Origin: Eunapius fragilis
Lineage: Eukaryota > Porifera > Demospongiae > Spongillida > Spongillidae
Assembly (NCBI GenBank): GCA_963681505.1
Contig: OY811972.1
Span: 11,753,279-11,817,278, forward strand
Direction: 5' to 3'
Length of the DNA: 64,000 nt
Shown: positions 630 to 60,727 of the stretch, piece by piece
How positions within the stretch are numbered: the first letter of the stretch is position 1
How the letters are laid out: each line of letters opens with the position of its first letter
Position numbers and translations under genes: made by a program
Notes under the pieces: model-generated
Database searches by the model: none
Seen by the model: only the letters and a program-made list of their open reading frames with translations
What the model was told of the DNA's origin: nothing

Positions 630-728
630 CTCATGAGCCTGATTGATATTAGCTCCTGCTTCAATGAGTTTCTTTACTACTTCAAGGTGTCCACTGCAGC
701 TTGATGTCCACAATGGACTCCGACCATC
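630..728 (-). CDS. Ankyrin exon, expanded W-type family (last one in the window)
   Basis: This 99-bp exon reads DGRSPLWTSSCSGHLEVV... ending INQAHE, with acceptor TATTAG and donor GTTGGT. A donor at its 3' end shows that the gene continues beyond the left edge. Confidence 0.67.
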
Positions 729-3700
729 CTAATAGAAGAGTGATCAATGTATCTGTATCAAATTACTGTAAGATGTCCAGTGTGTGCATGATGTACACAT
801 GTGCATAACCAAGACAACCACATGTGACTATGCACACAAAGGACCAGTGAAGATGATGATAGTAACTTTGAACAGTGACATACACATAAGCCAAGATCAT
901 CAATGTTACTGGTTACTGTCCCACATGAAAGATGGATTTGATGTTTGATTTAGTGGTTGGATATGTAAGAAAACATTGAAGCCCAATTAATGATTGGCTT
1001 AATGCAAAAAACAAAATCAGAAACAAGCATAGGAATAGAGATGGTGGTACATTGGGATGGAGGTGGGATATAGAGGTGGTGGTCTATAGGGATAGAGGTG
1101 GTGGTCTATAGGGAAAGATGTGGTGGTCTGCAGGGATAGAGGTGGTGGTCTGCAGGGACAGAGGTGGTGGTCTGTGGGAATAGAGGTGGAGATCTGTGGG
1201 GATAGAGGTAAGTGGTCTGTTGGGATTGAGGTGGTGGTCTGTTTGGATAGAGCTTGTGGTCTATGGGGATAGAGGTGGTGGTCAGTACCGATAGAGATGG
1301 TGGTCTGTGAGGATAGAGGTGGTGGTCTGTAGGGATAGAGGTGGTGGTCAGTAAGGATAAAGATGGTGGTCAGTGGGGATAGAGGTGGTGGTCTGTATGG
1401 ATAGAGGTGGTGGTCTGTAGGGATTAAGATGGTAGTCAGTACTTCACTATGGCCAGTGAATATGATGTTAGTAATACATGCTAAATATAGGTGTGTTCCT
1501 TTTCCCAAAACCATTTATTCCAAATCATGTACTGGTACATGTGCCAGTACATGAAGACCACTGAATGGAGCAGATCATTTCATCATACCAACCTTATCAG
1601 CCTGCTTGATATCAGCGCCTGCTTCAATGAGTTTCATTACTACTTCAAGGTGTCCATTGAAACTTGCTGTCCACAATGGACTCCCACCATCCTAATAGAA
1701 GAGTGATCAATGTATCTGTATCAAATTACTGTAAGATGTCCAATGTGTGCGCATGATGTACTCATGTAGATAACCATGACAACCACATGTGACTATGCAC
1801 ACAAAGGACAAGTGAATATGATGATAGTAATTTTGAACAGTGACATACACATAAGTCAAGAACAACAATGTTGCTGGTCACTGTCCCACATGAAAGATGG
1901 ATTTGATATTTGATTTAGTGGATGGATATGTAATTAAACAAGTAAAGAAAAACATTCTCTAATGAGAAAGTTGGTGGTATATAAGAATTGGAGGCAACGG
2001 TGGTGTAAAAAGGAGGGCAACAAGGTTTTGAGAAAATGGTAAATGAGACATAAATCCTATATTTATAAAGTGTAAATGTAACTGAAAAGAAGTGCTAAAT
2101 ATAGGATGTTTGTCTCATTTACCCTTTTCTCAAAACCTTGTTCCCCTCCTTTTTACACCACCTTTGCCTCCAATTCTATCCCACCAACTTTCTCGTCAGA
2201 GAATGTTTTTCTTTACTTGTTTCCTCTATTTTTTCATTATCATTTTTTATCGATTATTAATACTGGCAAGAGCCCCACCACCCCCGCCCCGCCCCCCGCC
2301 TGCTTCAATTACCATCATGAGCAGATGCCCGCTTTTGTTTGGGATCACTGTAAGGATTTCGTAAAGATAGAGGTGGTGGTTTTTAGGGATAGATATGGTG
2401 GTCTGTAGGGATAGAGATGGTGGTCTGTAGGGATAGAGGTGGTGGTCTGTAGGGATAGAGGTGGTGGTCTGTAGGAATAGAGGTTGTGGTCTGTTTGGAT
2501 AGAGGTTGTGGTCTGTAGGGATAGAGGTTGTGGTCTGTAGGGTTAGAGGTGGCAGTCTGTGGGGATAGAGTTTGTGGTATGTAGGGACATAGGTGGTTGG
2601 ACTCTGCTCTGCGTGTTCATGGTCATATTTGATTGTTATTATCAGTATGTGTATATGCGTATGTGGTGGTTGTATGATGCTGTTTATATGACTAGTTGGC
2701 AGTCATGCACAGGCGACGTTGCACCAATATTTGTCATTATGCATGGGGTAAGGGTGGTGTGCATGTACGAGGAGGCAGTAGAGGTGGTGGTCCGTAAGGA
2801 TAGAGGTGGTGGTCTGTAGGGACTGAGATGAGGGATAGAGGTGGTGGTCTGTGGGGATAGAGGCGGTGGTCTGAGTTTTTAAAATAAAATCTATTGTGAT
2901 TCAGTCTCTCTCTATATACATGCATACTTAAATTGCATCACTTGGTGATATCATAGGTATAAGAATACATCTAACTCGGTATTCTTCTATCTATGGTTAC
3001 ATCATAGCTAGGTCTCATGTACATGTACACGCATGTTGTGAGCATGACCTTTGAAAACCTAGCACAGAGTAAAAGTTACAATCTCATATAACATGATATT
3101 GACAATGACTATGGATTACAAAGGATTACAAATACAACACATCGTGTGACGAAATATATATATGAAGAAACATGCATCAACATGTACACGTCCAAATTAA
3201 TAAAATGTAATATCTATGGTGGTAGGCAAGGATAGAGGTGGTGGTCTGTAGGGATAGAGGTGGTGGTCTGTAGGGATAGAGGTGGTGATCTATAGGGATA
3301 GAGGTGGTGGTCTGTAGGGATAGAGGTGGAGGTCTGTGGGGACAGATGTGATGGTCTGCAGGGATAGAGGTGGTGATTTGTTGGGATAGAGGTGGTGGTC
3401 TGTAGAGATAGACAGGGTGGTCTGTAGGGATACATGTGCTGGACCATAGGGAATAGAGATGGTGGTCTGTAGGGATAGAGGTGGTCTGTAGGGATAGAGG
3501 TGGTGGTCTCTGGAGGAGTAGAGGTGGTGGTCTGTAGGGATAGAGGTGGTGGTCTGTGGGGATACAGGTGGTGGTCAGGGGGGACAGAGGTGGTGGCCTG
3601 TAGGGATAGAGATGGTGGTCTGTAAGGATAGAGGTGGTGGTATTTAGGGATTGAAATGGTGGTCTGTACTTCACAATGAACACAAATGGCCTGTGAATAT

Positions 3701-6700
3701 GATGATGTAGATATAGGTGTGATCCTTTTCCTGAAAACTTTTATTCCAAATCATGTACTGGTACATGTGCCAGTACATGAAGACCACTGAATGGAGTGGA
3801 TCATTTCATTATACCAACCTCATGAGCCTGATTGATATTAGCCCCTGCTTCAATGAGTTTCTTTACTACTTCAAGGTGTCCTTTGAAACTTGCTGTCCAC
3901 AATGGACTCCGACCATCCTAACAGAAGAGTGATCAATGTATCTGTATCAAATTACTGTAAGATGTCTAATGTGTGTGCATGATGTACACATGTACATAAC
4001 CATGACAACCACATGTGACTATGCACACAAAGGACCAATGAATATGATGATAGTAATTTTGAACAGTGACATACACATAAGTCAAGACCATCAATGATGC
4101 TGGTCACTGTCCCACATGAAAGATGGATTTGATATTTGATTTAGTGGATGGATATGTAATTAAACAAGTAAAGAAAAACATTCTCTAACGAGAAAGTTGG
4201 TGGTATATAGGAATTGGAGGCAACGGTGGTGTAAAAAGGAGGGGAACAAGGTTTTGAGAAAAGGGTAAATGAGACAAAAATCCTATATTTAGAAAGTGTA
4301 AATGTAACAGAAAAGAAGTGCTAAATATAGGATTTTTGTCTGATTTACCCTATTCTCAAAACCTTGGACCCCCTCCATTGTACACCACCTTTGCCTCCAA
4401 TTCCTATATCCCACCAACTTTCTCGTCAGAGAATTTTCTTTACTTGTTTCCTCTATTTTTTCATTATCATTTTTTATCGATTATTAATACTGGCAAGAGC
4501 CCCACCCCCCCCCCCCCCCCCCCCCCCCGCCCGCTTCAATTACCATCATGAGCATATGCCCGCTTATGTTTGGGATCACTGTAAGGAACGCGTAAAGATA
4601 GAGGTGGTGGTTTGTAGGCATAGATATAGTGGTCTGTAGGGATAGAGGTGGTAGTCTGTAGGGGTAGAGGTGGTGGTCTGTAGGGGTAGAGGTGGTGGTC
4701 TGTAGGAATAGAGGTTGTGGTCTGTGGGGTTAGAGGTGGCAGTCTGTGGGGATAGAGGTTGTGGTATGTAGGGATAGAGGCGGTGGTCTTTAGGGATAGG
4801 TGGTGACTACACCAAAACGTACATGTAGGTGTGACATGCTGCATCTTCATGATAGGGATCAGTGGTCAGCTGAAAGCTGTAGTGCATGCATCTATACAGC
4901 TTCCATGCTGAATGCTGCAAAGGTACCTTAACATAGACATACAAGTGAGTCATTAGATGTACAATACACTACTCAGTCCTACATAGCTATATAAGATGTA
5001 TCTCAAACATGGCTGGTAATAACCAGCAAGCAGTAAAATGTACAAGTATGATGGAACATATGCATTTGATGTATGCCACTGCAGGAATGGTTATATGTTC
5101 ACAGTACATGTACCTATCACATCTCTCTGTACACACTTCACAATAGATGAATTAGAACATCACTTACATTAGTTGCTATATTCACATCAGCACCAGCTCC
5201 CAACAAGGTCTGGACTACATCATGATGACCCTCCTGACTTGCCACATAGAGTGGAGTTGCATTGTCCTGAAAAAATAAAACATAAAGGGAACAAGGGCAT
5301 CACAAATGCACATGAGTGAATGTGTAGAAGAGTATAGAATGAGCAGTACAGAGGGAGAAGTTGAATTTTGGGAGGGTGCAGCAAGTGACCAGAAGTCAAT
5401 GGAATGTGATGGCCAAATTTATTGACTAGACCAAACAAGGCCCAAGTATCATAATCATATACCATTGATTACTTATCCTTATATAGTAGTGGTGGTCTTA
5501 GGGATAGAAGTGGTGGTCTGTAGCAATAGAGGTGGTGGTCTGTAGGGATAGAGGTGGTGGTCTGTAGGGATTGTGGTGGTGGTCTGTAGGTGGTCTGTGT
5601 GGATAGAGGTGGCGGCCTGTGGGGATAGAGGTGGTGGTCTGTGTATTCTTCTATCTATGCTACAGACCACCATTTCTATCCCTGCAGACCACCACCTCTA
5701 TCCCTTTAAATAGATATCTTCTATCTATGTCTGTAGGGATAGAGGCGGTGGTCTGTAGGGATAGAGGTAGTGGTTTTTAACAATAAGAGGTGGTGGTCTG
5801 CAGGGATAGAGGTGGTGGTTTGTAGGGATAGAGGTGGTGGTCTGTAGGGATAGAGGTGGTGATCTGTATGGATAGAGGTGATGGTCTGTAGGGATAGAGG
5901 TTGTGGTCTGTAGGAATAGAGATGGTGGTCAGTGGGGATAGACATAGTGGTCTGTAGGGATAGAGGTGGTGGCTGTAGAGATAGAGGTTGTGGTCTGTGG
6001 GGATAGAGGTGGTGGTCTGTGGGGATAGAGGTGGTGGTCTGTGGGGATAGAGGTTGTGTTCTGTAGGGATAGAGGTGGTGGTCTGTAGGGATAGATATGG
6101 TGGTCTGTTGTGATAATGGTGATGGCCTGTAGTGACAGAGGTTTTGGTTTGTAGGGATAGAGATGGTGGTCTGTAGGGATAGAGGTGGTGGTCTGTAGGG
6201 ATAGAAATGGTGGTCTGTAGGGATAGAAATGGTGGTCTGAATGGATAGAGATGGTGGTCTGTGTAGTCTCGTACTCAGACCCACATTGCAGCTGCGGATG
6301 GATTACATCACCGCTATGTGTGTCCTCTCGTACATATTTCTGTCCAGCTCCCCAGGAATGTTGGGGCGACCAATCAGATGAGGTATGCACTAATTACATG
6401 CTCTAGTTATCAATCAAAGTTATCGGTTATGGCGGTAAGGCTAGAGATGGATGATATACAGGTAAAATGTGCGAATCAGTCAGCGGGTGAACGTATGAGG
6501 TATGACAAAGTCAAGGACGAACAGTTCCGCGTCATCAAAGATGTGGTCCGTGGTCGGGACACGTTCATAAGCTTACCAACAGGATATGGGAAGTCTCTTT
6601 GTTACGGCGTTCTGCTAGGGTATATATTTGACAAGCGATCGGTTCGAGAGGTACGAAGCAAGACCCTCACAATCGCACCAAAAAGGCAAAGAGCAAGAAA

Positions 6701-9700
6701 TGATGCCACAGCCGATCCTCATCTTCGGAGAGCAGCTCAAGCAGCTCGTCGTCTGGGTCCAGCGACTCCAAAAGAAGAAGTTCAAGTGACGCAAGAGGAC
6801 CCACCACATCAGGTCGCGGGTGAGCAGCTTCCTCAACGCCCCCTTTTGCCTTCACTGCCATGTCCCTACCCCCTCGAGGCACGAAGTCAAGAGGGATAAG
6901 CATGCCCACTTTGATAAACTTCCCTCTCTCATAGACAATCCTTCCTCAATCCCCGTTTGACTGAGATATGCAGAAAAAGGTTGATGGAGTTGGCAGAGTG
7001 GTCAGAATAAATTTGTGGCAGACGGCGTAATACTTCCTGATCCTAGGTGGTGGACGTTGAGGAGGCCACAGCTCTGTGGAGGAGGTGTCTCAGGCGACCT
7101 TCTAGAGCTCTGCCAGCTCTTGAGGCACTGGTGTCGGTAGTTGCCTCTGAACCAGGCCCCATTCCATACAGGCCCCAAAACCACAGGTGCCGGAGGCATC
7201 CGTGTACAACTGGATTGGACTTTGCCTTGTTCCAAACTGGGGAGATGAATATAGAAATGCCATTCCAAGATGGTAGGAAGCTGTTCCACAATCGTATGTC
7301 ATTTTTGGCTTCAGAATTAAGATGGATATGGAGGTGGAGCCTCCTTAAAATCTGCATTCAGAATGGTTCTAATCCAGGCCTCTCAATGGGAACTGCATTC
7401 GGAATCCTGAAATTCCGTTCAGAGGACTGGATTGGAACCATTCTGAATGCAGATTTTCGACCATCATGGCTCCTTTTTCAAATGTGCTAAGGAGCCCCAC
7501 CACATCGTCAGTTGTGGAGCAATGGATAGTGTAATTAGGTTGGGTGCAGTGAAAGGAAAGTGAGGTCCGTTGTAGCTGGTGGACACCGCCAGGAGACGCA
7601 GGCCTTGTCAGGGTGATCATTCAGTTGCTGGAGCTCACGTAGTCCCAGGCAAATGGGCAGGCCTTGGCGGGGTGCTTCCCACCGCAGCCTGTGACCCAGC
7701 ACTTGTGTATAAATGAATGCAGTATAGCTTACATTTACCTTGATCAGAGTAGCTTCGCTTGTGAGAGATGATTCAAAACGCTGGCATTTAGGATCGGGTG
7801 TATCCAAGGCTAAGCGCACTGATATATGCTTCCTTAATAGGGGAAGACATTGTACGAAGAAGGGAGAATGTATATACAGTGCCACACAGCTTGCAATTGT
7901 CTATGACACGCGTTTCTAATCAAAGCATTAACGCATTCTTGCGGAAGATAATATTATTCATACATGTACATGACGTAACTGCATTCCTCCCAACGGTGGA
8001 ATGTAAGCATAATGTAATCGCTGGACAGAAATTATGTACAGGAGGACACCAGACCCACTACTTGCATAGCGGTGATGTAATCCATCTGCAGCTGCGATAT
8101 GGGTCTGGGTATGAGATTAGGTCTGTGGTGATGGAGGTGGTGGTCTGTGGAGATAGAGATGGCGATCGTTAGGGATAGAGATGGTGGTCTGTGGGGATAG
8201 AGGTGGTGGTCTGTAGGGATAGAGGTGGTGGTCTACAGGGATTGAGATGGTGGTCTGCAGGGATAGAGGTGGTGGTCTGTAGGGATAGAGGTGGTGGTCT
8301 TTAGGAATTGAGTTGGTGGTCTGTACTTCACTTCGCACACAAATGGCCTGTGAATATGATGATAGTATTACATGCTAAACATAGGTGTGTTCAGTTTCCT
8401 TTTATTTAAATCATGTACGGGTACCAATACATGAACTTGACACCACTCAATGCAGCGGATCATTTCATCATTCCTACCCTAGTAGCCTGATTGATATCAG
8501 CTCCTGCTTCAATGAGTTTCTTTACTACTTCAAGGTGTCCATTGAAACTTGCTGTTCTCAATGGACTCCGACCATCCTAATAGAAGAGTGATCAATGTAT
8601 CTGTATCAAATTACCGTAAGATGTATGTTGTACATATGTACATAAGGACCAGCAAATATGATGATACTGTAGCGGTCGTAATAATTATTTATGCCGTGGC
8701 CGTTGTATGGTATAACCATATACGTAACGTAGATCGTAATAGGTGTAGCGTATAACTCCCGTACGTGATGCTGCTGGTCACTGTTTCACATGTAAAATGG
8801 CTTTGATTTTTGATTCAGTGGTTGGATATGTACATTTGTAATAAACCATGTCTGAGGTAAGTTAACCTTTAACTCTAGATATGGGTTATAATAAGGGGCC
8901 CCTGTTAAAATGTGTTAACATGAGTGAACCTGTACATCGGATCATACAGTTGGTCATGAGGGATAGAGGTGGTAAGCTGTAGGGATAGAGGTGGTAGTCT
9001 GTAGGGGTAGAGGTGGTGGTCTATGGGGGTTGAGGTGGTGGTATGTAGGGATAGAGGTGGTAGTCTGTAGAGATAGTGGTGGTGGTCTGTAGAGATAGAG
9101 GTGGTGGTCTGTAGGAATAGCGGTGGTGGTCTGTAGGGATAGAGGTGCCGGTCTGTAGAGATAAAGGTGGTGGTCTGTCGGGATAGAGGTGGTGGTGTGT
9201 GGATATAGAGGTGGTGGTCTGTAGGGATAGAGGTGGTGGTGTGTGGGGATAGAGGTGGTGGTCTGTAGGGATAGAGATGGTGGTCTGTAGGGATAGAGGT
9301 GGTGGTCTGTGGGGATAGAGGTGGTGTTCAGTAGGGTGGTCTGTAGGGATGGAGGAGGTTGTCTGTAAGGATAAAGGTTGGGGATAGGGGTGGTGGTCTG
9401 TTGGGATAGCGATGGCGGTCTGTAGGGAGTCTGTACTTCACTATGGCCAGTGAATATGATGTTAGTAATACATGCTAAATATAGGTGTGTTCCTTTTCCC
9501 AAAACCTTCAATTCCACATCATGTACTGGTACATGTGCCAGTACATGAAGACCACTGAATGGAGCAGATCATTTTATCATACCAACCTTATCAGCCTGAT
9601 TGATATTAGCTCCTGCTTCAATGAGCTTCTTTACCACTTCAAGGTGTCCACTGTAGCTTGCTGTCCACAATGGACTCTGACCATCCTAATAGAAGAGTGA

Positions 9701-12275
9701 TCAATGTATCTACTGAAAGATGTATAATATGATATACCCAGGTACATAACCATGACAACCACATGCGACTATGCACACAAAGGACCAGTGAATATGATGA
9801 TAGTAATTTTGAACAGTGACATACACATAAGCCAAGAACATCAATGTTGCTGGTCACTGTCCCACATGTACGATGGAATTGATTTTTGATTTAGATCTTT
9901 TCTTCCTTTATAAAGTAGAGGGGCTAAAAATGCAATGTGTTTAAACAGTCTCACCTCATCAGTAGCATCAATGTTCACCCCAGCATCAAGCAGTGCAATG
10001 ATTTCATCAACCCTGCCACCTTCTGTAGCCTTAAGAAGCATCTTTTCTGGGGTCTACGGTGGGTGCATGGTAGTAATGGTATGTAACACAATAACATTCA
10101 TAGTGTACATGTCAGACTAATTGTATAATACACTACTGTGATTGGTTCATGTACCCCTCTCCTCTGTGGTCCCTAGCTCTTATCTCCCTTCCCCTTCAAT
10201 TTTTGTGTGAAAACAGACCCCCTCATGAAATATCCTTTTCTAATTCACATGTGCATCCATACACTGTATTGGGTACAATAGCTCACTGAATAACTCACCA
10301 TACAACCACTGCCTACACAGAAGTACTCACCATACAAGAGCACTCTATTTAGAAGAACTCTCCATACATACCAGTCCCTTCCTACATATATAAGTACTCT
10401 CCATACACCTTCTATATTTTATATCTACACTTGGCTTGAAAAACATGCCAGTTAAAGAATATTTCATTTTCTTATGTCCTGCTATTGCATTTTCAATTAG
10501 TGATGATGTGAAAACAACGTATATGTCTGATCATTAAATTGTCAACTCAATGTTAGCTAATGTTTTTATATTAAACTTTTTGATAACGCTGGTGGAATAT
10601 TTGAAGACAAAGTATAACAATATTAATTGTACCCTTGTAAGAATTGGACAATGTTGTGAACAAGACCACCTCTCTGATGACAAATCCTCACCTCACCACT
10701 TGTATTAAGCTGATTAAGTCCCACCATCACTTCATCTGTTCTGCCATTTTTAACAGCATCCAGTAACATCTACAATTAAGAAACAATATGTTTATTAAAT
10801 GTACGTACAAAAGCGTATTGACTAGCTCCATCATTAGGGATGGCCATGATGGTTGCTATGGGACCAGCTCCACCATTGGGGGAAGCCATGATGGAGGTTA
10901 TGGGACTAGCTCCACCATTGTGGAGGCCATGATGGAGGCTATGGGACCAGCTCCACCATTGGGGTAGGCCATGATGGAGGCTATGGAACCAGCTTAACCA
11001 TTGGGGGAGGCCATAATGGAGGCTATGGGACCAGCCCAAACATTGGGGGCCATGATTGAGTGGGGGAGGTGATGATGGAGAAGTTCCACCATTGGGATTC
11101 TCCTCCATACCACCAGGAGGATTCTCCCCCATACTATCACCACACATGTCCAAATGCCCTGTATCCATCCCTGAACTGTACCCACCTCATCATGGTGATT
11201 GGCCTGGGTACCCCCATCCAACAGCAGTTTCACACAATCAATATGGCCAGCAGCTGATGCAGCTCTCAGTGGGGTCCTTCCATCCTGTAAGGAGAAAGCC
11301 ATATCACAGGGCATACCAGGAGTAAGATGTGTACCAAAGGTAAGCAAAAGGGCAAACAATGGAGGTCTGGGGAAGAGGGGCGGGTCCTCATAAATGACAA
11401 CCATAACAGCAGGTGTGAACACTGACTAATAAACAAGCTGGTTAAGTACCAAAATGTTTCTTTCCATTAACAGCACATGCACACACATGCTGCACACTTC
11501 ACCCATGATACATGTACATAGGCCATGAAACACAACCATTCCCAAGACACATTTTAAATGGACCGTCCCCTCACCCCTAATCTTGATCCAATCCCTTGGC
11601 AAACTTTGTAAATGAAAATGTGGACCTTTATATAATTAGGTCAGATCACGTCTACACAACTTTGGTCAGTGTTATTAGACCAAATTTGCAATCACATCTC
11701 CTGTCCATTGATAACAGTGGAATAAATATCCAGCACATCACACTCCAGTACTGGTCACATGCATGTACTGGCTTTACCTCACCTACATCCTCCACTCACT
11801 AAAGGTTTGCCTCAGACCCCAATTGTTAGATTACAGTGCTGCCTGATAACACATTGCTAGTCCCCCATACTACCACCACATCAATCCAAAAGTCCTGTAT
11901 CCATCCCTGAACTGTACCCACCTTAGACTTGTGATTAGCCTGTGCGCCCCCAGCCAAAAGGACTTTCACACACTCAGCCTGGCCACGTGCTGATACAACC
12001 ATCAGTGGGGTCCTTCCATCCTGTAAAGAGAAGACAATATCACAGGGTGTACTAGGTGTGTCTCTAACAGAGATGTGTGTGTGGGCAGTATAACCAAAAG
12101 CAGTCAAATGAGCAAACATTGGGGTCTGGGGAGGAGGGGTGGGTCCTCATAAATGACGGACCAATGTAAGACTAACAGGTGTAAACACTAATGGATTGGG
12201 TGACTTTGCACAAGAATGGTTTAATACCATTACATGTACACCGTACAAGCATGCACCCAACACATACACACACAC

Positions 12276-12311
<36 letters not shown>

Positions 12312-18300: not shown

Positions 18301-21300
18301 GCATACTTAAATGCATCACTTGGTTAGATCATAGGTACATGTATCTAGGTATTCTTCTATCTATGGTTACATCACGGCTAGGTCTCATGTACATGTACAT
18401 GCACGTTGTTAGCATGACCATTGAAAATTTAGCACAGAATAATGGTTACGATCTCATTAAACATGATCTTGATGATGACTGTGGATTACAAAGGATTACA
18501 AATACAACACATCGTGTGACAACAAATACATATGCAGAAACATGCATCAACATGTACACGTCCAAATTAATAAAATCTAACATCAATGGTGGTATTCAGG
18601 GATAGAGGTGGTGGTCTGTAGGGATAAAGGTGGTGGTCTGTAGGAATAGAGGTGGTGGTCTGTAGGGATAGAGGAGGTGGTCTGTGGGGATAGAGGTGGT
18701 GGTCTGTGGGGATAGAGGTGATAGTCTGTAGGGATAGAGGTGATGGTCTGTGTGGATAGAGGTGGTAGTCTTAGGGATAGAGGTGGCGCTCTATAGGGAT
18801 AGAGGTGGTGGTTTGTAGAGATAGAGGTGGTGGTCTGTAGGGATAGAGGTGGTGGTCTGTTGGGATAGAGGTGGTGGTCTGTAGGGGTAGAGGTGGTGGT
18901 CAATAGGGATAGAGGTAATGGTCGTAGGGATAGAGGTGGTGGTCTGTGTGGATAGAGGTGGTGGTCTGTGTGGATAGAGGTTGTGGTCTGTGGGGATAGA
19001 GGTGGTGGTCTGTAGAGACAGAGATTGTGGTCTGTGTGGATAGAGGTGGTAGTCTGTAGGGATAGAGGTGATGGTCTACATGTATGCGGATAGAGGTGGT
19101 GGTCTGTAGGGATAGAGGTGGCGGTCTGTAGGGAGTGAGGTGGTGGTCTGTAGGGATAGAGGTGTTGATCTGTTGGGATAGAGGTGGTGGTCTGTAGGGA
19201 TAGAGGTGGTGGTCTGTAGAGATAGAGGTTGTGGTCTGTAGGGATAGAGGTGGTGGTCTTAGGGATAGAGGTGGTAGTCTGTAGGGATAGAGGAGATGGT
19301 TGTAGGGATAGAGGTGGTGGTCTGTAGGGATAGAGGTGGTGGTCTGTAGGGATAGAGGTGGTAGTCTGTGGGGATAGAGGTGGTGGTCTGTAGGGATAGA
19401 GGTGGTGGTCAGTAGGGATAGAAATGGTGGTCAGTGCGGATAGAGGTGGTGGTCTGTAGGGATAGTGATGGTGGTGTGTGGGGATATAGGTGGTGATAGA
19501 GGTGATGGTCAGTAGGGACAGAGTTGTGGTCTGTAGGTATAGAAGGTGGTCTGATGTGATGGTCCGTAGGGATTGAGATGGTGATCTGCACTACACCATG
19601 GACACCAATGGCCTGTGAATATTACATACTATATATAGGTGTGTTCCTTTTCCCAAAACCAAATCATGTACGGGTACATGTAACAAGTCATTTCATTATA
19701 CCAACCTTATCAGCCTGATTGATATTAATTTCTGCTTCAATGAGTTTCTTTACCACTTCAAGGTGTTCATTGTAGCTTGCTGTCCACAATGGACTCCGAC
19801 CATCCTAATATAAGAGTGATCAATGTATCTGTATCAAATTACTATAAGATGTCCAATGTGTGTGCATGATGAACACATGTACATAACCATGACAACCACA
19901 TGTGGCTATGCACACAAAGGACCAATGAATATGATGATAGTAATTTTGAACAGTGATATACACATAAGCCAAGAACATCAATATTGATGTGGTCCCTGTC
20001 CCACATGTACGATGGATTTGACGTTTGATATAGTATAACATGTCTGTGGTAAGTTGACCATTAACTCTTAATATGAGCAATAATTAGAAGCCACTGTTTA
20101 AATGTCTTAACATGAAGGACCCCCTGTACATTGTATTATACAGTTGGTCATGACAGTGGTAAACATGTCTGTAGTATCCAGCCTATTGCTAGCACAGCAT
20201 GCTTACATACTGGAGATGAATCAGATTGCAACACAATATATGATTGGCTTAAAGCAAAAAACAAAATCAGAAACAAGCATAGGATAAGAGATGGTGGTAT
20301 AATGGGATGGAGGTGGGATATAGAGGTGGTGGTCTGTAGGGATAGAGGTGTAGGTCTGTAGGGATAGAGGTGGTAGACTGTAGGGATAAAGGTGATGGTC
20401 TATGTGGATAGAGGTGGTGGTCTGTAGGGATAGAGGTGGTGGTCTGTAGGGATAGAGGTGGTGGTCTGTAGGGATAGAGGTGGTGGTCTGTAGGGATAGA
20501 GGTGGTGGTCTGTAGGGATAGAGGTGATGGTCTGTGGGGATAGAGGTGGTGGTCTGTAAGGATAGAGGTAGTAGACTGTAGGGATAGAGGTGATGGTCTA
20601 TGTGGATAGAGGTGGTAGACTGTAGGGATAGAGGTGGTGGTCAGTGCGGATAGAGGTAATGGTCTGTAGAGATAGAGGTGGTGGTCTGTAGGGACAGAGT
20701 TGTGGTCTGTAGGAATAGAAGGTGGTCTGATGTGGTGGTCCGTAGGGATTGAGATGGTGATCTGTACTACACTATGGACACCAATGGCGTGTGAATATGA
20801 TAGTATTGCATGCTAAATATAGGTGTGTTCATCTTCCCAAAACCAAATCATGTATGGGTACATGTAACAGGTCATTTCATTATACCAACCTTATCAGCCT
20901 GATTGATATTAGCTTCTGTTTCAATGAGTTTCTTTACCACTTTAAGGTGTCCATTGTAGCTTGCTGTCCACAATGGACTCCGATCATCCTAATATAAGAG
21001 TGATGAATGTATCTGTATCAAATTACTATAAGATGTCCAATGTGTGTGCATGATGAACACATGTACATAACCATGACAACCACATGTGACTATGCACACA
21101 AAGGACCAATGAATATGATGATAGTAATTTGAACAGTGACATACACATAAGCCAAGAACATCAATGCTGATGGTCCCTGTCCCACATGTACGATGGATTT
21201 GACGTTTGGTATAGTATAACATGTCTGTGGTAAGTTGACCATTAACTCTTAATATGAGCGATAATTAGATACCACTGTTAAAATGTCTTAACATGAAGAA

Positions 21301-24300
21301 CCCCCTGTACATTGTTTTATACAGTTGGTCACAACAGTGGTAAACATGTCTGTAGTATCCAGCCTATTGCTAGCACAGCATGTTTACATACTGGAGATGA
21401 ATCAGATTGCAAAACAATATATGACTGGCTTAATGCAAAAAACAAAATCAGAAGAAAGCATAGGAATAGAGATGGTGGTATATTGGGATGAAGGTGGGAT
21501 ATAGAGGTGGTGGTCTGTAGGGATAGAGGTGGTGGTCTGTAGGGATAGAGGTGGTAGTCTGTAGGGATAGAGGTGGTGGTCTGTAGGAATAGAGGTGGTG
21601 GTCTGTAGGAATAGAGGTGGTGGTTTGTAGGGATAGGTATGATGGTCTGTAGAGATAGAGGAGGTGGTCTGTAGGGATAGAGGTGGAGGTCTGTAGGGAT
21701 AGAGGTGGTGGTCTGTAGGGATAGAGGTGGTGGTCTGTAGGGATAGAGATGGTGGTCTATGGGGATAGAGGTGGAGGACTGTAGGGATAGAGGTGGTAGT
21801 CTGTGGGGATAGAGGTGGTGGTCTGTGTGGATAGAGGTGGTAGTCTGTTTGGATTAAAGTGGTGGTCTGAAGGGATAGAGGTGGTGGTCCGTAGGGAAAG
21901 AGGTGGTGGTCTGCGTGGATAGAGGTTGTGGTCTGTAGGGATAGAGGTGGTGGTCTGTAGAGACAGAGGTTGTGGTCTGTGTGGATAGAGGTGGTCGTCT
22001 GTAGGGATAGAGGTGGTGGTCGTAGGGATAGAGGTGGTGGTCTGTAGGGATAGAGGTTGTGGTCTGTAGGGATAGAGGTGGTGGTCTGTAGGGATAGAGG
22101 TGGTGGTCTGTAGGGATAGAGGTGGTGGTATGTGGGGATAGTGGTAGTGGTCTGTAGGGATAGAGGTAGTGGTCTGTAGGGATAGAGATGGTGGTCTGTA
22201 GGGATAGAGGTGGTGGTCGTAGGGATAGAGGTGGTGGTCTGTAGGGATAGAAATGGTGGTCTGTAGGGATAGAGGTGGTGGTATGTGGGGATAGAGGTGG
22301 TGTTGTGTGGAGATGTAGGTGGTGATAGAAGTGATGGTCAGTAGGGACAGAGTTGTGGTCTGAAGGAATAGAAGGTGGTTTGATGTGGTGGTCCGTAGGG
22401 ATTGAGATGGTGATCTGTACTACACTATGGACACCAATGGCCTGTGAATATGATAGTATTACATGCTAAATATAGGTGTGTTCCTCTTCCCAAAACCAAA
22501 TCATGAACGGGTACATGTAACAGGTCATTTCATTATACCAACCTTATCAGCCTGATTGATGCTAGCTCCTGCTTCAATGAGTTTCTTTACCACTTCAAGG
22601 TGTCCATTGTAGCTTGCTGTCCACAATGGACTCCGACCATCCTAATATAAGAGTGATCAATGTATCTGTATCAAATTACTGTAAGATGTCCAATGTGTGT
22701 GCATGATGAACACATGTACATAACCATGACAACCAAATGTGACTATGCACACAAAGGACCAATGAATATGATGATAGTCATTTTGAACAGTGACATACAC
22801 ATAAGCCAAGAACATCAATATTGATGTGGTCCCTGTCCCACATGTACGATGGATTTGACGTTTGATATAGAATAACATGTCTGCGGTAAGTTGACCATTA
22901 ACTCTTAATATGAGCTATAATTAGATACCACTGTTAAAATGTCTTAACATGAAGAACCCCCTGTACATTGTATTATACAGTTGGTCACAACAGTGGTAAA
23001 CATGTCTGTAGTATCCAGCCTATTGCTAGCACAGCATGCTTACATACTGGAGATGAATCAGATTGCAACACAATATATGATTGGCTTAATGCAAAAAACA
23101 AAATCAGAAACAAGCATAGGAATAGAGATGATGGTATATTTGGATGAAGGTGAGATAGAGATGGTGGTTGTAGGGATAGAGGGTGGTCTGTAGGGATAGA
23201 GATGGTGGTCTGTGTGGATAGAGGTGGTGGTCTGTAGGGATAGAGATGGTGGTCTGTAGGGATAGAGGTGGTGGTCTGTGTGGATAGAGGTGGTGGTCTG
23301 TAGGGAGAGAGGTGGTGGTCTGTAGGGATAGAGGTGGTGGTCTGAGTGGATAGAGGTGGTGGTCTGTAGGGAGAGAGGTGGTGGTCTGTAGGGATAGAGG
23401 TGGTGGTCTGTAGGGATATAGGTGGTGGTCTGTAGGGATAGAGGTGGTGGTCTGTAGAGATAGAGGTGGTGGTCTGTAGGGATAGAGATGGTGGTCTGTG
23501 TGGATAGAGGTGGTGGTCTGTAGGGATAGAGCTGGTGGTCTGTAGGGATAGAAGTGGTGGTCTGTTGGGATAGAGGTGGTGGTCTGTAAGGACAGAGGTG
23601 ATGGTCTGTAGGGATAGAGGTGGTGGTCTGTAGGGACAGAGGTGATGGTCTGTAGGGATAGAGGTGGTGGTCGGTAGGGATAGAGGTGGTGGTCTGTAGA
23701 GATAGAGGTGGTGGTCTGTAGGGATAGAGGTGGTGGTCTGTTGGGATAGAAGTGGTGGTCTGTAGGGATAGAGGTGGTGGTCTGTAAGGATAGAGGTGGT
23801 GGTCTGTAGGAATAGAGATGGTGGTCTGTAGAGATAGAGGTTGTGGTCTGCAGGGATCGAGGTGGTGGTCTGTAGGGATAGAGGTGGTGGTCAATGGGGA
23901 TAGAGGTGGTGGTCTGTACGGAATGATGGAACATGGGGACATTGACACGAGCATCTCACCTCACCAGTGGCATCAACATTAACCCCTCCATCAAGCAGCC
24001 TGATCACCTCCTCAGTACTGCCATCTCTTGCTGCAGCAGCTATTAGCATCCCTTCTAGTTCCTACAGTGATATCAACATGGGTGAACAGATATGGTAGAA
24101 CCCTATATGGACAACTACTCTCATCAGACTGCTGTTAGAGATGTAGTGGTAAAGGCATTGTTTGTCATGATGGACACTGATGAATTGCAGCTGTATTATT
24201 TTGAACCCCACATGCGTGAGTGCAATTTCACATTGCGGTTCCACCTCACCAACATGCCCCACCCCCAACACTGTACACACTCTACTGCATAATATAATAT

Positions 24301-26000
24301 GCCAGCAAGACACATTGGTCTGACCTTATCCTGTTGGTTGGCCTGTGCTCCCTTATCTGACAGCAATTTAACACACTCATCATGGCCAGCTGCTATAGCA
24401 TACATCAGTGGAGTCCCTCCATTCTGTAAGGAGATGGTCATATCACATGGTGTGTGCACAAACAATGGAGGTCTGGGGAGGAGGGTAAAATAATAATACC
24501 AGTAATTAGAATACAGCATAATGAAATCATGTAACCTGATTGGACAATGCCAATTGAAGGTATATATATCTATTAATAGATGCCATATCCAATGCATATT
24601 TAAATCATCTTTCTATCATAGGTAGCAAAGTATCTCGTTCACAAAGCACTTACATAATAACTCTATTCGTGAACATTTATTACAAATGGGGAGGAGGAAC
24701 TGGTCTGCTAAGGCAACTGTACATAACTTGGCCTTTTGTATATAAGCACCTCACCGTAATGTAAAATTACATAAATGACACATCACAGGGGCAGGGGGAG
24801 GGTGTTGAGAATTGGTTGTATAATGGTGGTGGTATGTTAACCACAACTATTAGCTGTTTTTGTAAGTACTTCCTTGTATGGATGGGTTGAATAAAAATGG
24901 CAGGGCCTGTAAACAGCATGATTTAACTTACCCCTTAGTGATATATAGTCACCTCATCAGGCAATGGAACAAAAAAACATTCTTCTCTCACCTTATCCTG
25001 GTGATGGGCCTGGGCACCCCTACCCATCAGCACTTTCACACACTCAACATGGCCAGCTAGTGATGCCCAAATCAGTGGTGTCATTCCACCCTGCAAGGAG
25101 AAAGGTATAATCACAGGCTGGAAAGCCTGGGAGGGAGGGTACTACTCAGAAAATAAGCACTGACTATGATGAGGGGGAGGGTCCACTAAGAAGAACCCCC
25201 TCATCAAGTAGTTCTGGTACATCATGAGAATGGAGACCCACAACAGAGCAGATCACATAGGTAATCCTCATAGGTACCAGAGCTAAGGTATGAAGGATGG
25301 TGGGTGTGAGGGTGGAGTGTTCCTGGTGTTAGCTGTACAAGTGATTTTATTGCAAGAAAACTAGCTACCTAAGTGCTTCAGGATAGCTAACACACGCCTA
25401 CATGCATTGCTACTAAATCATGTTGCACATAATTTACTTTATTTAAAATTGTATGAAAGCAAGTTGACAGGAGCATCTCACCTCATCAGTGGCATCAACA
25501 TTAACCCCTCCATCAAGCAGCCTGATCACCTCCTCAGTACTGCCATCTGCTGCAGCAGCTATCAGCTTCCTTTCCAGGGCCTGCAGTGATATCCAAACGT
25601 TGGTGACACACCGGAAGCTAAAGGTAAAACCTCCCGGGGTCACTACCATTTCATATATTATATAGAGAGGTTGCTGTGTCATCCCAGAAAGAGCGGAGGC
25701 TATGTTTTTTGGTGTCTCCAGTTCTATTACAGAATGTTTCAGCTTATAACCTGAACAGAACTGGGCACACCATAGATAAACTAATATCTATGGGCTGCTT
25801 AATGGGCACACCAAGAAACATGGCCGCCGCTCTTCCACGGATGACACTGCAAACTCATAACTGATGACCAGTTCGGTACGGGTCAATTGTCTCAACCCCT
25901 TCTACGTACAGTCTTCAACATGACGTACCTCTTGGCCCACAGCAGGCTGTTTGACGGCTGCTGGTGCTTCATCGAGGAGGCTGCGGGACTGTGCCTCCAT
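630..26000 (-). CDS. Ankyrin-repeat protein gene (or cluster), 22 mapped exons, 3' end off the left edge
   Basis: I assembled this gene on the minus strand from splice signals and repeat fit. Exons in transcription order are 25929-26000 (start ATG), 25482-25580, 24992-25090, 24325-24423, 23960-24061, 22543-22641, 20890-20988, 19706-19804, 18022-18120, 17070-17168, 14545-14643, 13542-13640, 11922-12020, 11186-11284, 10692-10769, 9955-10053, 9587-9685, 8478-8576, 5168-5266, 3819-3917, 1593-1691 and 630-728. Together they encode about 711 codons with no stop. Every exon is a multiple of three and phase 0, so any subset joins in frame. Ankyrin repeats are protein-binding helix-turn-helix units, so a scaffold or recognition role is expected; no enzymatic or membrane domain is visible. 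Some exons (25482, 23960, 9955, 10692) look like N-capping repeats, so two or more genes may be present. The partner and function are unknown. Confidence 0.7.
1034..1440. repeat. 21-bp minisatellite array, about 19 units
   Basis: Same 21-bp unit and orientation as the array at 231-480. Units diverge more here (GTAC, TTTGG and GCTTG variants), which suggests an older array. Confidence 0.95.
1593..1691 (-). CDS. Ankyrin exon, expanded W-type family
   Basis: This 99-bp exon reads DGGSPLWTASFNGHLEVV... ending IKQADK, with acceptor TATTAG and donor GTTGGT. A foldback MITE (1939-2220) lies in the intron 5' of it. Confidence 0.67.
1939..2220. mobile_element. Foldback MITE, family A, copy 1
   Basis: About 280 bp and nearly self-complementary. 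It begins CAAGTAAAGAAAAACATTCT and ends with the reverse complement ...CTTTACTTG. Inner arms hold CTAATGAGAAAGTTGGTGG and CTCAAAACCTTG. It has no ORF of note. Copies 2 and 1 share the same insertion site, so this one was duplicated along with its host block. Confidence 0.8.
2364..2880. repeat. 21-bp minisatellite, interrupted (2364-2620 and 2776-2872)
   Basis: Two short arrays of the same unit are split by about 150 bp of unrelated sequence (2,620-2,770). They begin directly after the MITE-containing flank. Confidence 0.9.
3217..3668. repeat. 21-bp minisatellite array, about 21 units
   Basis: Same unit as above. Its last 130 bp, from the 'ggggatacagg' unit to the 'cttcacaatgaacac' junction, match the end of the 231-480 array almost exactly. 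The two arrays therefore share an origin by block duplication. Confidence 0.95.
3819..3917 (-). CDS. Ankyrin exon, expanded W-type family
   Basis: This 99-bp exon reads DGRSPLWTASFKGHLEVV... ending INQAHE, with acceptor TGTTAG and donor GTTGGT. It shares the ending AHE with 630-728, so these two copies are close relatives. Confidence 0.67.
4164..4447. mobile_element. Foldback MITE, family A, copy 2
   Basis: Same hairpin as 1939-2220, and the flanks match on both sides ('gatatgtaattaaa' left, 'cctctattttttcattatc' right). This shows segmental duplication after insertion. A C24 tract follows at 4,505-4,528. Confidence 0.8.
4593..4800. repeat. 21-bp minisatellite array, about 10 units
   Basis: Same unit, following the second MITE-containing flank. 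It ends at unique sequence near 4,800. Confidence 0.92.
5168..5266 (-). CDS. Ankyrin exon, DN-TPLYVA type
   Basis: This 99-bp exon follows a strong acceptor (TTTTTTCAG) and ends at donor GTAAGT. It reads DNATPLYVASQEGHHDVVQ..., a paralogue of 18022-18120. Confidence 0.75.
5485..6263. repeat. 21-bp minisatellite array with an inverted segment
   Basis: About 33 units in total. Near 5,650-5,710 two to three units run in the opposite orientation (CAGACCACCACCTCTATCCC on the plus strand), flanked on both sides by 'cttctatctatg'. The array is cut at 6,263 by the TIR element and resumes at 8,120. Confidence 0.93.
6432..6650 (+). pseudogene. RecQ-like DNA helicase, N-terminal exon fragment
   Basis: ATG at 6432 opens MAVRLEMDDIQVK..., then KVKDEQFRVIKDVVRGRD and the Walker A motif LPTGYGKSLCY (about 6,573-6,605). 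The exon ends at RSVRE before a GTACGA donor-like site. Family knowledge: RecQ helicases carry a Q-motif/Walker A block like this and need a DEAH box plus six or more further motifs, none of which follows here. It is therefore a captured fragment, not a working helicase. It lies wholly inside the TIR element. Confidence 0.6.
6660..7790 (-). mobile_element. DIRS-type retroelement fossil (RT/RNase H part)
   Basis: Minus-strand frames show WNSFLPSWNGIS near 7,270 and LYTDASGTCGFGA near 7,170-7,215, the RNase H core typical of DIRS-like tyrosine-recombinase retroelements. Short pieces of related reading extend on both sides. It is a broken remnant with several interruptions, and a hairpin sits within it. 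It is nested in the TIR element. Confidence 0.5.
7347..7457. repeat. Hairpin, about 111 bp, inside the TIR element
   Basis: The arms start AAAATCTGCATTCAGAATGG on the left and end with its reverse complement on the right. The arms are about 45 bp with few mismatches. No coding content seen. Confidence 0.75.
8120..8325. repeat. 21-bp minisatellite array, about 10 units
   Basis: Continuation of the 5,485-6,263 array on the far side of the inserted TIR element. Confidence 0.92.
8478..8576 (-). CDS. Ankyrin exon, expanded W-type family
   Basis: This 99-bp exon reads DGRSPLRTASFNGHLEVV... ending INQATR. The usual W is R here, and the donor is GTAGGA rather than GTTGGT. The intron beyond its 5' end carries unrelated sequence at about 8,650-8,760. 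Confidence 0.63.
8956..9430. repeat. 21-bp minisatellite array, about 22 units
   Basis: Same unit, diverged, with small indels near the right end. Followed by the conserved 'cactatggccagtgaatatg' junction and the exon at 9587-9685. Confidence 0.94.
9587..9685 (-). CDS. Ankyrin exon, expanded W-type family
   Basis: This 99-bp exon reads DGQSPLWTASYSGHLEVV... ending INQADK, with acceptor TATTAG and donor GTTGGT. Flanking sequence for several hundred bases matches the other W-type blocks. Confidence 0.68.
9955..10053 (-). CDS. Ankyrin exon (N-cap type)
   Basis: This 99-bp exon lies between a CGTAG acceptor and donor GTGAGA. It reads TPEKMLLKATEGGRVDEI... ending DATDE, and resembles the cap exons at 25482 and 23960 in layout. 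Confidence 0.7.
10692..10769 (-). CDS. Short ankyrin-like exon (26 codons)
   Basis: This 78-bp exon follows an ATTGTAG acceptor and ends at donor GTGAGG. It reads MLLDAVKNGRTDEVMVGL... ending TSGE. It aligns with the cap-type exons but lacks their first seven residues. The opening ATG could be a translation start if a promoter lies upstream; that is unproven. Confidence 0.5.
10825..11050. repeat. 42-bp tandem repeat, about 5 units
   Basis: Units carry the core CCATGATGGAGGCTATGGGA with a CCAGCTCCACCATTGGGG part. It lies in the short intron between the ankyrin exons at 10692 and 11186. The minus-strand reading frame is open, but both flanking exons have clear splice sites, so I read it as intronic. 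Confidence 0.85.
11186..11284 (-). CDS. Ankyrin exon, DCVK subtype
   Basis: This 99-bp exon lies between a CTTACAG acceptor and donor GTGGGT. It reads DGRTPLRAASAAGHIDCV... ending NHHDE, a well-formed repeat. Confidence 0.75.
11922..12020 (-). CDS. Ankyrin exon, ECVK subtype
   Basis: This 99-bp exon lies between a TTTACAG acceptor and donor GTGGGT. It reads DGRTPLMVVSARGQAECV... ending NHKSK. Its flanks match those of 11186-11284, so the two are a local duplication. Confidence 0.74.
12252..12325. repeat. (CA)n microsatellite
   Basis: A run of CA dinucleotides with a few interruptions, in the intron between the ankyrin exons at 11922 and 13542. Confidence 0.95.
12680..12910 (+). mobile_element. 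Possible DIRS-associated gag-like fossil
   Basis: Plus-strand reading gives VMDVNTWVPCFAFYANILS and, further on, a LAWAQYDS-like stretch. This resembles a protein found with DIRS-like elements of marine invertebrates (WV.CF..Y followed by a GLAW..YD motif). Short and broken; recognition is from memory of the family only. Confidence 0.35.
13542..13640 (-). CDS. Ankyrin exon, expanded W-type family
   Basis: This 99-bp exon reads GGQSPLWMACFNGHLEVV... ending INQATK. Its donor has drifted to GTTTGT. It is the sister of 14545-14643. Confidence 0.66.
13811..14032. mobile_element. Foldback MITE, about 220 bp
   Basis: Ends are inverted: CGCCCCCAATGCGCAAGAT on the left against ATCTCGCGCATTGGGGGCG on the right. 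A long inner stem runs from AATCACCGTACCTCAGTAAC to the reverse copy ending near 13,990. No coding capacity. It sits at the border of the tandem duplication, next to a C10-12 tract. Confidence 0.7.
14545..14643 (-). CDS. Ankyrin exon, expanded W-type family
   Basis: This 99-bp exon reads SGQSPLWIACFNGHLEVV... ending INQTTK. Donor GTTGGT. It is the second copy of a tandem duplication of about 1 kb; its sister exon is at 13542-13640. Confidence 0.68.
15480..15560 (-). pseudogene. Scar of a lost DN-type ankyrin exon
   Basis: Sequence on both sides matches the surroundings of the exon at 18022-18120: the 'ggtaataaccagcaaacag' stretch, then 'tttgtcctgaaaataagag'. The 99-bp exon body and several hundred bases of flank are missing between them. 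Only the acceptor side remains. Confidence 0.6.
16017..16940. repeat. 21-bp minisatellite array, about 44 units
   Basis: Long and comparatively homogeneous array of the same unit, with GTGTGGATA variants recurring. It lies between a conserved spacer block (15,765-16,015) and the exon at 17070-17168. Confidence 0.95.
17070..17168 (-). CDS. Ankyrin exon, expanded W-type family
   Basis: This 99-bp exon reads DGRSPLWTASYNGHFEVV..., with EAEANINQADK at its end. Acceptor TATTAG, donor GTTGGT. It lies just past a 44-unit minisatellite array. Confidence 0.68.
18022..18120 (-). CDS. Ankyrin exon, DN-TPLYVA type
   Basis: This 99-bp exon follows a good acceptor (TTTTCAG) and ends at a consensus donor, GTAAGT. 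It reads DNKTPLYVACQKDHLDLVQ.... It is paralogous to the exon at 5168-5266. A third copy of its surroundings at about 15.5 kb has lost the exon. Confidence 0.75.
18590..19590. repeat. 21-bp minisatellite array, about 47 units
   Basis: Same unit and position in the duplicated block as the 16-kb array. Several units carry short deletions. Confidence 0.95.
19706..19804 (-). CDS. Ankyrin exon, expanded W-type family
   Basis: This 99-bp exon reads DGRSPLWTASYNEHLEVV..., then EAEININQADK. The usual turn glycine before HL is E here, which may weaken the fold. Its donor is GTTGGT. Confidence 0.66.
20280..20765. repeat. 21-bp minisatellite array, about 23 units
   Basis: Same unit. Preceded by a conserved 240-bp block (cagttggtcatgacagtgg... 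to ...acaagcatagg) that also precedes the arrays at 21,465 and 23,125. Confidence 0.95.
20890..20988 (-). CDS. Ankyrin exon, expanded W-type family
   Basis: This 99-bp exon reads DDRSPLWTASYNGHLKVV..., with LIETEAN in the second helix and loop. Its donor is the weak GTTGGT. Its changes from neighbouring copies are mostly amino-acid replacing and none breaks the frame. Confidence 0.68.
21465..22420. repeat. 21-bp minisatellite array, about 45 units
   Basis: Same unit, same left junction as 20,280 and same right junction ('ctacactatggacaccaatgg'). Confidence 0.95.
22543..22641 (-). CDS. Ankyrin exon, expanded W-type family
   Basis: This 99-bp exon reads DGRSPLWTASYNGHLEVV... ending INQADK. 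Its acceptor ends TATTAG and its donor is GTTGGT. It sits in a repeated block with the exons at 20890 and 19706, with minisatellite arrays on both sides. Confidence 0.7.
23125..23930. repeat. 21-bp minisatellite array, about 38 units
   Basis: The most homogeneous of the arrays. On the minus strand all three frames stay open for hundreds of bases because 21 is a multiple of three and the unit has no stop in that direction. Confidence 0.95.
23960..24061 (-). CDS. Ankyrin exon (N-cap type), 34 codons
   Basis: This 102-bp exon lies between a CTGTAG acceptor and donor GTGAGA. It reads ELEGMLIAAAARDGSTEEV... ending DATGE. One codon longer than its paralogue at 25482-25580, it still keeps phase 0. 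A second cap in mid-gene suggests either a second transcription unit or duplication of a cap-plus-repeats block. Confidence 0.7.
24325..24423 (-). CDS. Ankyrin exon
   Basis: This 99-bp exon lies between a CTTACAG acceptor and donor GTCAGA. It reads NGGTPLMYAIAAGHDECV..., and belongs to the older ECVK subtype shared with exons at 24992, 11922 and 11186. Confidence 0.75.
24992..25090 (-). CDS. Ankyrin exon
   Basis: This 99-bp exon lies between a TTGCAG acceptor and donor GTGAGA. It reads GGMTPLIWASLAGHVECV..., a full 33-residue repeat with TPL and the GH(V)ECVK helix motif. Confidence 0.75.
25482..25580 (-). CDS. Ankyrin exon (N-cap type)
   Basis: This 99-bp exon follows a CTGCAG acceptor, ends at donor GTGAGA and reads ALERKLIAAAADGSTEEV... 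ending in DATDE. It lacks the TPL motif of internal repeats, as expected for a first, capping repeat. It is nearly identical to the exon at 23960-24061, so the two arose by duplication. Confidence 0.7.
25816..25828. promoter_or_regulatory. YY1-like site in the first intron
   Basis: AAACATGGCCGCC fits the YY1 core (AANATGGCNGC), which in animals often lies just downstream of transcription starts. It is in intron 1 of the ankyrin gene, about 100 bp past exon 1. Confidence 0.4.
25929..26000 (-). CDS. First coding exon of the ankyrin gene
   Basis: ATG at 26000-25998 opens 24 codons reading MEAQSRSLLDEAP... and ending GQE at a good donor, GTACGT. It is phase 0 and joins in frame to the exon at 25482-25580. 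An NRF-1-like palindrome lies 47 bp upstream, which supports this as the real 5' end. I saw no alternative upstream exon. Confidence 0.55.
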
Positions 26001-46240: not shown

Positions 46241-46261
46241 AACCATTGGTCCTTCATACTA

Positions 46262-53107: not shown

Positions 53108-53109
53108 AT

Positions 53110-60660: not shown

Positions 60661-60727
60661 GTACCTTACATGAAAGAGCAACTCTATGATCTATTGAATA
60701 GCGAGCGCTTTACAATTGATTACAAGT

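Follow-up and report, generated by a model that had tools for sequence, protein, structure and literature searches.

Between positions 630 and 26000 of the window (the whole stretch of 64,000 nucleotides analysed, from contig OY811972.1 of the sponge Eunapius fragilis), the minus strand carries 22 coding exons in phase 0. These are a start exon, 19 exons of exactly 99 nt, one of 102 nt and one of 78 nt. The 21 internal exons, 19 of which thus have the 99-nt length, are all bordered by AG and GT, are in phase 0 on both sides and contain no stop. In gene order the exons are: start, cap A, M, M, cap B, W, W, W, Y, W, W, W, M, M, short cap, cap C, W, W, Y, W, W, W, where the letters denote families of ankyrin-type repeat. 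The introns measure 0.3–3 kb, and many of them contain a 22-bp minisatellite. The gene runs out of the window at base 1, so that its C-terminus and any C-terminal domains lie outside. The features, in gene order, are listed below.

25929–26000 (coding part), minus strand: first coding exon MEAQSRSLLDEAPAAVKQPAVGQE; donor GTACGT, phase 0 out
25482–25580, minus strand: cap-type repeat exon A, 99 nt, phase 0
24992–25090, minus strand: M-type ankyrin exon, 99 nt
24325–24423, minus strand: M-type ankyrin exon, 99 nt
23960–24061, minus strand: cap-type repeat exon B, 102 nt
23175–23928, plus strand: 22-bp minisatellite array, intron
22543–22641, minus strand: W-type ankyrin exon 1 (gene order), 99 nt
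21460–22420, plus strand: 22-bp minisatellite array, intron
20890–20988, minus strand: W-type ankyrin exon 2, 99 nt
20315–20767, plus strand: 22-bp minisatellite array, intron
19706–19804, minus strand: W-type ankyrin exon 3, 99 nt
18586–19590, plus strand: 22-bp minisatellite array, intron
18022–18120, minus strand: Y-type ankyrin exon, 99 nt
17070–17168, minus strand: W-type ankyrin exon 4, 99 nt
16010–16937, plus strand: 22-bp minisatellite array, intron
15252–16008, minus strand: copy of the Y block at 17597–18584, Y exon deleted except for its first few bases
14545–14643, minus strand: W-type ankyrin exon 5, 99 nt, without a minisatellite just downstream
13542–13640, minus strand: W-type ankyrin exon 6, 99 nt, without a minisatellite just downstream
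11922–12020, minus strand: M-type ankyrin exon, 99 nt
11186–11284, minus strand: M-type ankyrin exon, 99 nt
10692–10769, minus strand: short cap-like exon MLLDAVKNGRTDEVMVGLNQLNTSGE, 78 nt, phase 0; weak profile match, 12.4 bits
9955–10053, minus strand: cap-type repeat exon C, 99 nt
9587–9685, minus strand: W-type ankyrin exon 7, 99 nt
8949–9429, plus strand: 22-bp minisatellite array, intron
8478–8576, minus strand: W-type ankyrin exon 8, 99 nt
8119–8326, plus strand: 22-bp minisatellite array, intron
5496–6266, plus strand: 22-bp minisatellite arrays (5496–5646 and 5724–6266); 5658–5711 holds the unit on the other strand
5168–5266, minus strand: Y-type ankyrin exon, 99 nt
4590–4803, plus strand: 22-bp minisatellite array, intron
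3819–3917, minus strand: W-type ankyrin exon 9, 99 nt
3217–3669, plus strand: 22-bp minisatellite array, intron
2358–2876, plus strand: 22-bp minisatellite arrays (2358–2599 and 2775–2876)
1593–1691, minus strand: W-type ankyrin exon 10, 99 nt
1066–1437, plus strand: 22-bp minisatellite array, intron
630–728, minus strand: W-type ankyrin exon 11, 99 nt; the gene presumably runs on past the window start
233–480, plus strand: 22-bp minisatellite array, lying downstream of the final exon in the window

We searched the whole window, taking splice sites into account, for open 99-nt stretches between AG and GT and obtained 119 minus-strand and 80 plus-strand candidates. An ankyrin consensus score of at least 13 of 24 was reached by 19 of the former and by none of the latter. 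Adding the 102-nt exon, the 78-nt exon and the start exon brings the total to the 22 phase-0 exons (19 of them 99 bp long) that an initial annotation of this DNA had described. The statements of that annotation that no copy is interrupted by a stop and that any subset of exons stays in frame also held, as none of the 11 W exons has a stop and all internal junctions are in phase 0. DNA profiles identified 11 W, 4 M, 2 Y and 3 cap exons, all scoring at least 90 bits; no other match of any profile exceeded 17.6 bits, the score of the Y profile on a W exon. The eleven close copies of one repeat noted previously were confirmed as the W family. When the 11 W translations were compared, 22 of 33 positions varied. 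The copies had been said to differ at residues 7–13 and 25–33; these regions are indeed variable, but so are positions 1–3, 15, 16, 19, 23 and 24, and positions 28 and 30 are invariant.

The spliced protein, assembled from 21 of the 22 exons (without the 78-nt exon), matched Pfam Ank_2 at 2.7e-146 (477 bits, cutoff 27.3) and Pfam Ank at 462.7 bits in 17 stretches. It consists of tandem 33-residue repeats above the Pfam Ank cutoff, as expected of an ankyrin-repeat protein. By sequence, its closest solved structure is Ankyrin-1 (1e-139). Ankyrin-1, -2 and -3 and other long solenoids provide the best matches among solved structures, in each case over the repeats only. Canonical ankyrins carry spectrin-binding (ZU5-UPA) and death domains after their repeats, a region that here would fall beyond the window. 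Human ANK1 has repeat exons of 99 and 198 bp.

Whether all these exons belong to one gene depends in part on the three cap-type repeats (25580, 24061 and 10053), which we take to resemble the first repeats of ankyrin domains and which could therefore mark the starts of separate tandem genes. We set aside a separate gene beginning at each cap exon, since no other convincing copy of the start exon was found in the window and the intron between the second M exon and cap B (24324–24062) is only 263 bp long. This short gap disfavours cap B as the start of a gene of its own. The gap preceding cap C measures 1132 bp and contains the 78-nt exon, and gives no such argument; a gene start at 10053 is kept as a minor possibility. 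A tblastn search of the window for a convincing second start exon returned one self match, with all others at E values of 4.9 or worse. The intron preceding the short cap exon contains a 42-bp tandem repeat (5.5 copies, 10820–11049), within an open frame of 136 codons on the gene strand (10779–11186).

The intronic minisatellite, which had gone unmentioned in the initial annotation, has the 22-bp unit GGATAGAGGTGGTGGTCTGTAG. Counted at up to 4 mismatches in 22, this unit occupies 7085 bp of the plus strand between positions 1 and 24000, and 54 bases of the minus strand; between 24001 and 64000 its plus-strand coverage is 0 bp. An array lies 115–157 bp to the 3' side of nine of the 11 W exons; among random non-array positions, 4.0% have one at 110–160 bp. 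The exons at 13542 and 14545 have no adjoining array; as both are W copies, arrays are not required for duplication. The W-proximal ends of two arrays are co-linear between copies (19390–19622 and 22219–22451 are 92% identical), and the other registers listed, with 30 of 40 copies shown, lie at 60–72%. The unit is free of stops in all three frames of the gene strand, which can explain open frames of about 300 residues inside the arrays. We considered the arrays as coding sequence and rejected this, given the stop-free unit and a local ankyrin profile that reports nothing inside them. Exact 21- and 24-base patterns of the unit had no match in IMG/VR or in the GTDB species genomes. One 22-bp array seems to be interrupted by an insert at 6267–8118, which is bounded by what look like imperfect inverted repeats and contains a DEAD helicase-like frame (6267–6896, plus strand, 26.8 bits with a cutoff of 26).

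Self-comparison of the window with tandem repeats masked revealed block duplication. Four W copies (17070, 19706, 20890 and 22543) lie in blocks of 0.65–0.74 kb that are 93–96% identical. The copies at 630, 1593 and 3819 are 89–94% identical among themselves, and the copy at 9587 is 86–90% identical to these three. Those at 8478, 13542 and 14545 are more distant, with 84% identity between the latter two. In one case the segments adjoining two W copies are 97% alike, while the W blocks themselves are at 93%, a pattern that might in principle reflect a switch of history across an array. The reported spread as blocks of about 1–2 kb is thus right as to block copying, but the homologous part comprises only about 0.5–0.9 kb outside the masked arrays, beside an array of 0.2–1.0 kb. 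Given the fixed place of the arrays and the co-linear ends of two of them, the duplicating unit of most W copies is exon plus intron plus minisatellite. Counts of homology ends near arrays were set aside, since masking itself creates such ends. Together, the exon scan, the self-comparison and the array positions support the layout originally proposed, that of interchangeable phase-0 cassettes spread as genomic blocks. A short MITE-like repeat, whose copies match one another in either orientation (1933–2356, 4159–4592, 52693–53112 and, more weakly at 69–72%, 60721–61027), lies beside two W cassettes and occurs at two other places.

One exon has also been lost. In the Y-block copy at 15252–16008, aligned with 17597–18584, the Y exon is gone except for its first few bases. 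The downstream flank missing there is common to both intact Y exons (4973–5316 and 17816–18164), and the absence is therefore a deletion. This deletion keeps the reading frame.

Taken together, these findings suggest, with a probability of roughly 0.7, that the window contains the 5' part of one long ankyrin-repeat gene with a repeat per exon, which has grown and shrunk by duplication and deletion of cassettes. The exons would most likely be spliced constitutively and in order, to give a solenoid of at least about 21 repeats, of which 20 are full-length in the window. Each cassette, comprising an exon, its flanking intron and for most W copies the 22-bp minisatellite, adds exactly 33 codons in frame, so that unequal exchange could alter the length of the solenoid without harm to the frame, growing the gene by tandem duplication and occasionally shrinking it by deletion. 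Similar introns and arrays would supply the homology for such exchange; the arrays may promote it and help the gene both to gain and to lose repeats. New copies hold an open frame, and their exposed residues change faster than those of the fold, either freely or under mild diversifying selection.

The alternative that survives best is that the recent W copies are largely unconstrained, and are heading to decay or are skipped in the mature mRNA. We consider this possible, although on balance doubtful. Eight recent copies were compared with their flanks, leaving out the W copies at 8576, 13640 and 14643, whose upstream flanks align poorly. Exon tree length was almost the same as that of the flanks (0.304 and 0.323), as relaxation would predict, and the pooled pN/pS of W exons was 0.98 over 55 non-independent pairs. 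Consensus glycines have been replaced in recent copies (G2D, G13E and G25E), which looks like relaxed constraint and also counts against the diversified recognition surface discussed below. The donor is GTTGGT in 9 of the 11 W exons, in our judgement a poor match to GTRAGT, and these sites look weak. Against relaxation, the reading frame is kept in the W copies: none of the 11 has a stop, an indel or a lost AG or GT. From the flanks we expected 2.7 indels (each gap interval being counted as one event), 1.3 stops and 1.3 hits to AG or GT in the exons of the recent eight. None was seen, and the joint neutral probability of this outcome is about 0.005. Among older copies, those at 13640 and 14643 differ from the others by 0.09–0.17 in the exon and by 0.20–0.31 in the 80 bp upstream; in the 80 bp downstream, aligned bases differ by 0.07–0.20 with 10–52 gap columns. 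Hence the exon is conserved above the upstream intron but not above the 80 bp downstream. For this reason, and because the structural positions described below mostly do not evolve significantly below the neutral rate, we gave more weight to relaxation and less both to our main reading and to diversification.

In order to see where replacements fall, we used position sets based on ankyrin and DARPin design, in which six or seven positions of the W repeat are taken as DARPin-type contacts and sixteen as structural. By parsimony, synonymous nucleotide changes number 7 and non-synonymous ones 36 in all eleven copies, the latter amounting to 32 codon replacements (p = 0.22), and 6 and 23 in the recent eight, with 21 replacements (p = 0.83); neither proportion differs from the neutral one. 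Of the 32 replacements in all eleven, 14 fall on the seven contact positions, where 21% were expected (p = 0.004), and only 7 on the sixteen structural positions, where 48% were expected (p = 0.004). In the recent eight the bias is in the same direction (contact 9/21, p = 0.028; structural 6/21, p = 0.085). A difference in rate between fold and surface is therefore well supported for all eleven copies, and the shortage of structural replacements counts against relaxation, though less in the recent eight.

Codon models with six contact positions were then fitted in five ways. A single omega was 1.10 (intron-scaled) and 1.15 (free scale) in the recent eight, and 1.48 (exon tree) and 1.49 (flank plus exon tree) in all eleven, and none of these values differed from 1 (p ≥ 0.285). 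It was 0.43 (p < 0.001) when all eleven were scaled by their flanks, but on that tree three copies may have non-homologous sequence far upstream, which would inflate the yardstick. With three classes, omega at contact, structural and other positions in the recent eight was 2.35, 0.73 and 1.01 on the intron scale (p = 0.062 for three classes over one, 0.027 for contact omega against 1 and 0.35 for structural omega against 1) and 2.45, 0.76 and 1.06 on the free scale (p = 0.062, 0.073 and 0.60, in the same order). For all eleven copies, the values were 3.31, 0.69 and 1.83 on the exon tree (p = 0.0015, 0.0067 and 0.44) and 3.45, 0.67 and 1.92 on the flank plus exon tree (p = 0.0011, 0.0062 and 0.42). 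The flank-scaled tree, with the caveat above, gave 1.00, 0.20 and 0.56 (p = 0.0007, 0.998 and <0.0001). Since structural omega was not significantly below 1 in four of the five fits and the three-class model was marginal in the recent eight, the case for constraint on the fold rests on the count test and the intact frames.

These results bear on a second alternative, namely that the W copies form a diversified recognition surface, selected at ligand-contact residues, in which copy number and perhaps exon choice yield many specificities, as reported for the ankyrin repeats of fungal NLRs. We regard this as unlikely, and as slightly weaker than relaxation. It would account for the contact omega above 1 in four fits and for the excess of contact replacements, and random sets of six positions reached the contact omega in only 83 of 5000 draws. 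However, random sets of six from the seventeen non-structural positions did so in 1070 of 5000, from which it follows that exposed positions in general are fast, and not the contacts in particular. Moreover, dS is anchored by just 7 synonymous changes, gene conversion between copies could mislead the omega test, and the contact omega falls to 1.0 on the flank-scaled tree. Whether contact positions exceed the neutral rate, or the fold is constrained below it, depends on the yardstick chosen; the result is ambiguous and positive selection is not proven. The initial annotation had named dN/dS across the eleven copies as a check, with values near 1 taken as a sign of neutrality. The outcome was mixed: four of the five fits gave whole-exon values that could not be told from 1, the remaining one gave 0.43, and contact positions ranged from 1.0 to 3.45 by model. 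By that criterion, values near 1 point to neutrality unless the surface bias is confirmed. The replacements favour exposed positions, as a binding surface would predict, and a role in recognition remains speculation. Improbable in our estimate is the stronger proposition that the cassettes with intronic minisatellites act as a recombination-driven repeat editor, with a surface under diversifying selection, and that individuals accordingly carry solenoids of different binding properties.

Combinatorial alternative splicing of the cassettes, giving many in-frame isoforms, we hold to be very improbable. It would fit the phase-0 junctions, by which any subset stays in frame, and the weak appearance of the W donors. 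Such phase symmetry is, however, expected in any gene with one repeat per exon, and is by itself no sign of regulated choice. In Dscam-like exon arrays, mutually exclusive choice has been shown in RNA and selector sequences are present. Least credible of all is that the tandem copies are partly an assembly artefact with alleles placed end to end: near-identical tandems do occur in this assembly, as in a 223-bp direct duplication at 31269–31717 (99%), but the W blocks differ by 4–24%, the array lengths differ, and Y, M and cap exons are interleaved.

Genes with one repeat per exon are a known class of repeat-protein genes, and the new detail at this locus is the 22-bp array downstream of most W exons. 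As described in PMC4585158, Street, Rose and Barrick (2006) recognised one class of repeat-protein genes in which exons correspond to multiples of the repeat, probably through local duplication of intron/exon modules. PMC3995336, which cites the same work, states that whole repeat units are often spanned by exons. The present locus has both whole-repeat exons and duplication of exon plus intron blocks (93–96% identity in four W copies, 89–94% in three). It resembles the class in that an ankyrin exon is nearly always one repeat in phase 0 and that exon and intron form the unit. It differs in that most W cassettes include a minisatellite and that duplication is recent enough to have left the blocks legible.

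Björklund et al. (2006; PMC1553488) suggested that domain repeats may expand like minisatellites, with hotspots possibly located in introns in some families, and that finding such hotspots requires exact duplicated segments. The same source describes duplication of single domains as rare in ankyrins and, in the portion available, names no motif. The locus is similar in having a repeated motif in introns beside duplicated domain exons, but here single W exons have been duplicated. The expansion of domain repeats is an old question; here the duplicated segments are still young enough to be made out, and one 22-bp motif lies at a fixed place in nine of 11 cases, which makes the proposal of Björklund et al. 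(2006) testable at one locus. An open-access literature search returned no paper on 99-bp phase-0 ankyrin exons, nor on intronic minisatellites associated with exon duplication by unequal crossing.

In fungal NLRs, ankyrin, TPR and WD repeats are described as having high internal identity, length polymorphism and positive selection, the latter on the concave surface with one exception (PMC4986451); introns are not mentioned in the main text of that paper. The sponge gene is alike in its near-identical repeats, its bias towards exposed positions, and its gain and loss of repeats. It is unlike them in having one repeat per exon and introns of 0.3–3 kb, and no NOD or effector domain was seen in the part within the window. 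As modelled, the 24 residues ahead of the first repeat leave no room for an N-terminal NOD or NACHT domain. The fungal case is supported by data from wild isolates, whereas this gene is known from one sequence. Should the surface bias prove to reflect positive selection, this gene would become a candidate for an animal equivalent of the ankyrin receptors of fungi.

Elsewhere in the window, no Rfam family was found at gathering score and no tRNA was found by ARAGORN. A Pfam scan of 88 chosen open frames (from 26000–64000, plus twelve below 24400) gave three matches to DNA_pol_B_exo1 (best 1.5e-18) and one PHD finger (5e-07), placed no closer than this. Transposon remains lie nearby, with DDE_Tnp_1_7 at 33898–34401, a zinc knuckle within 35282–36337 and an integrase zinc-binding domain within 37006–37569; an integrase-core match at 56288–56635 is just under the Pfam cutoff. 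A 26-bp minisatellite, CCCCTGTGTCACAACCATGCTACCAC, occupies 38992–46246 in about 279 copies, with open frames of up to 406 codons on the plus strand. At the end of the window, a 350-codon open frame on the minus strand of 62951–64000 has repeats of the KADPEKKKASVRDSY type, after which comes a tandem repeat of 45 bp; the frame encodes a protein of 15-residue repeats that presumably resembles sponge proteins.
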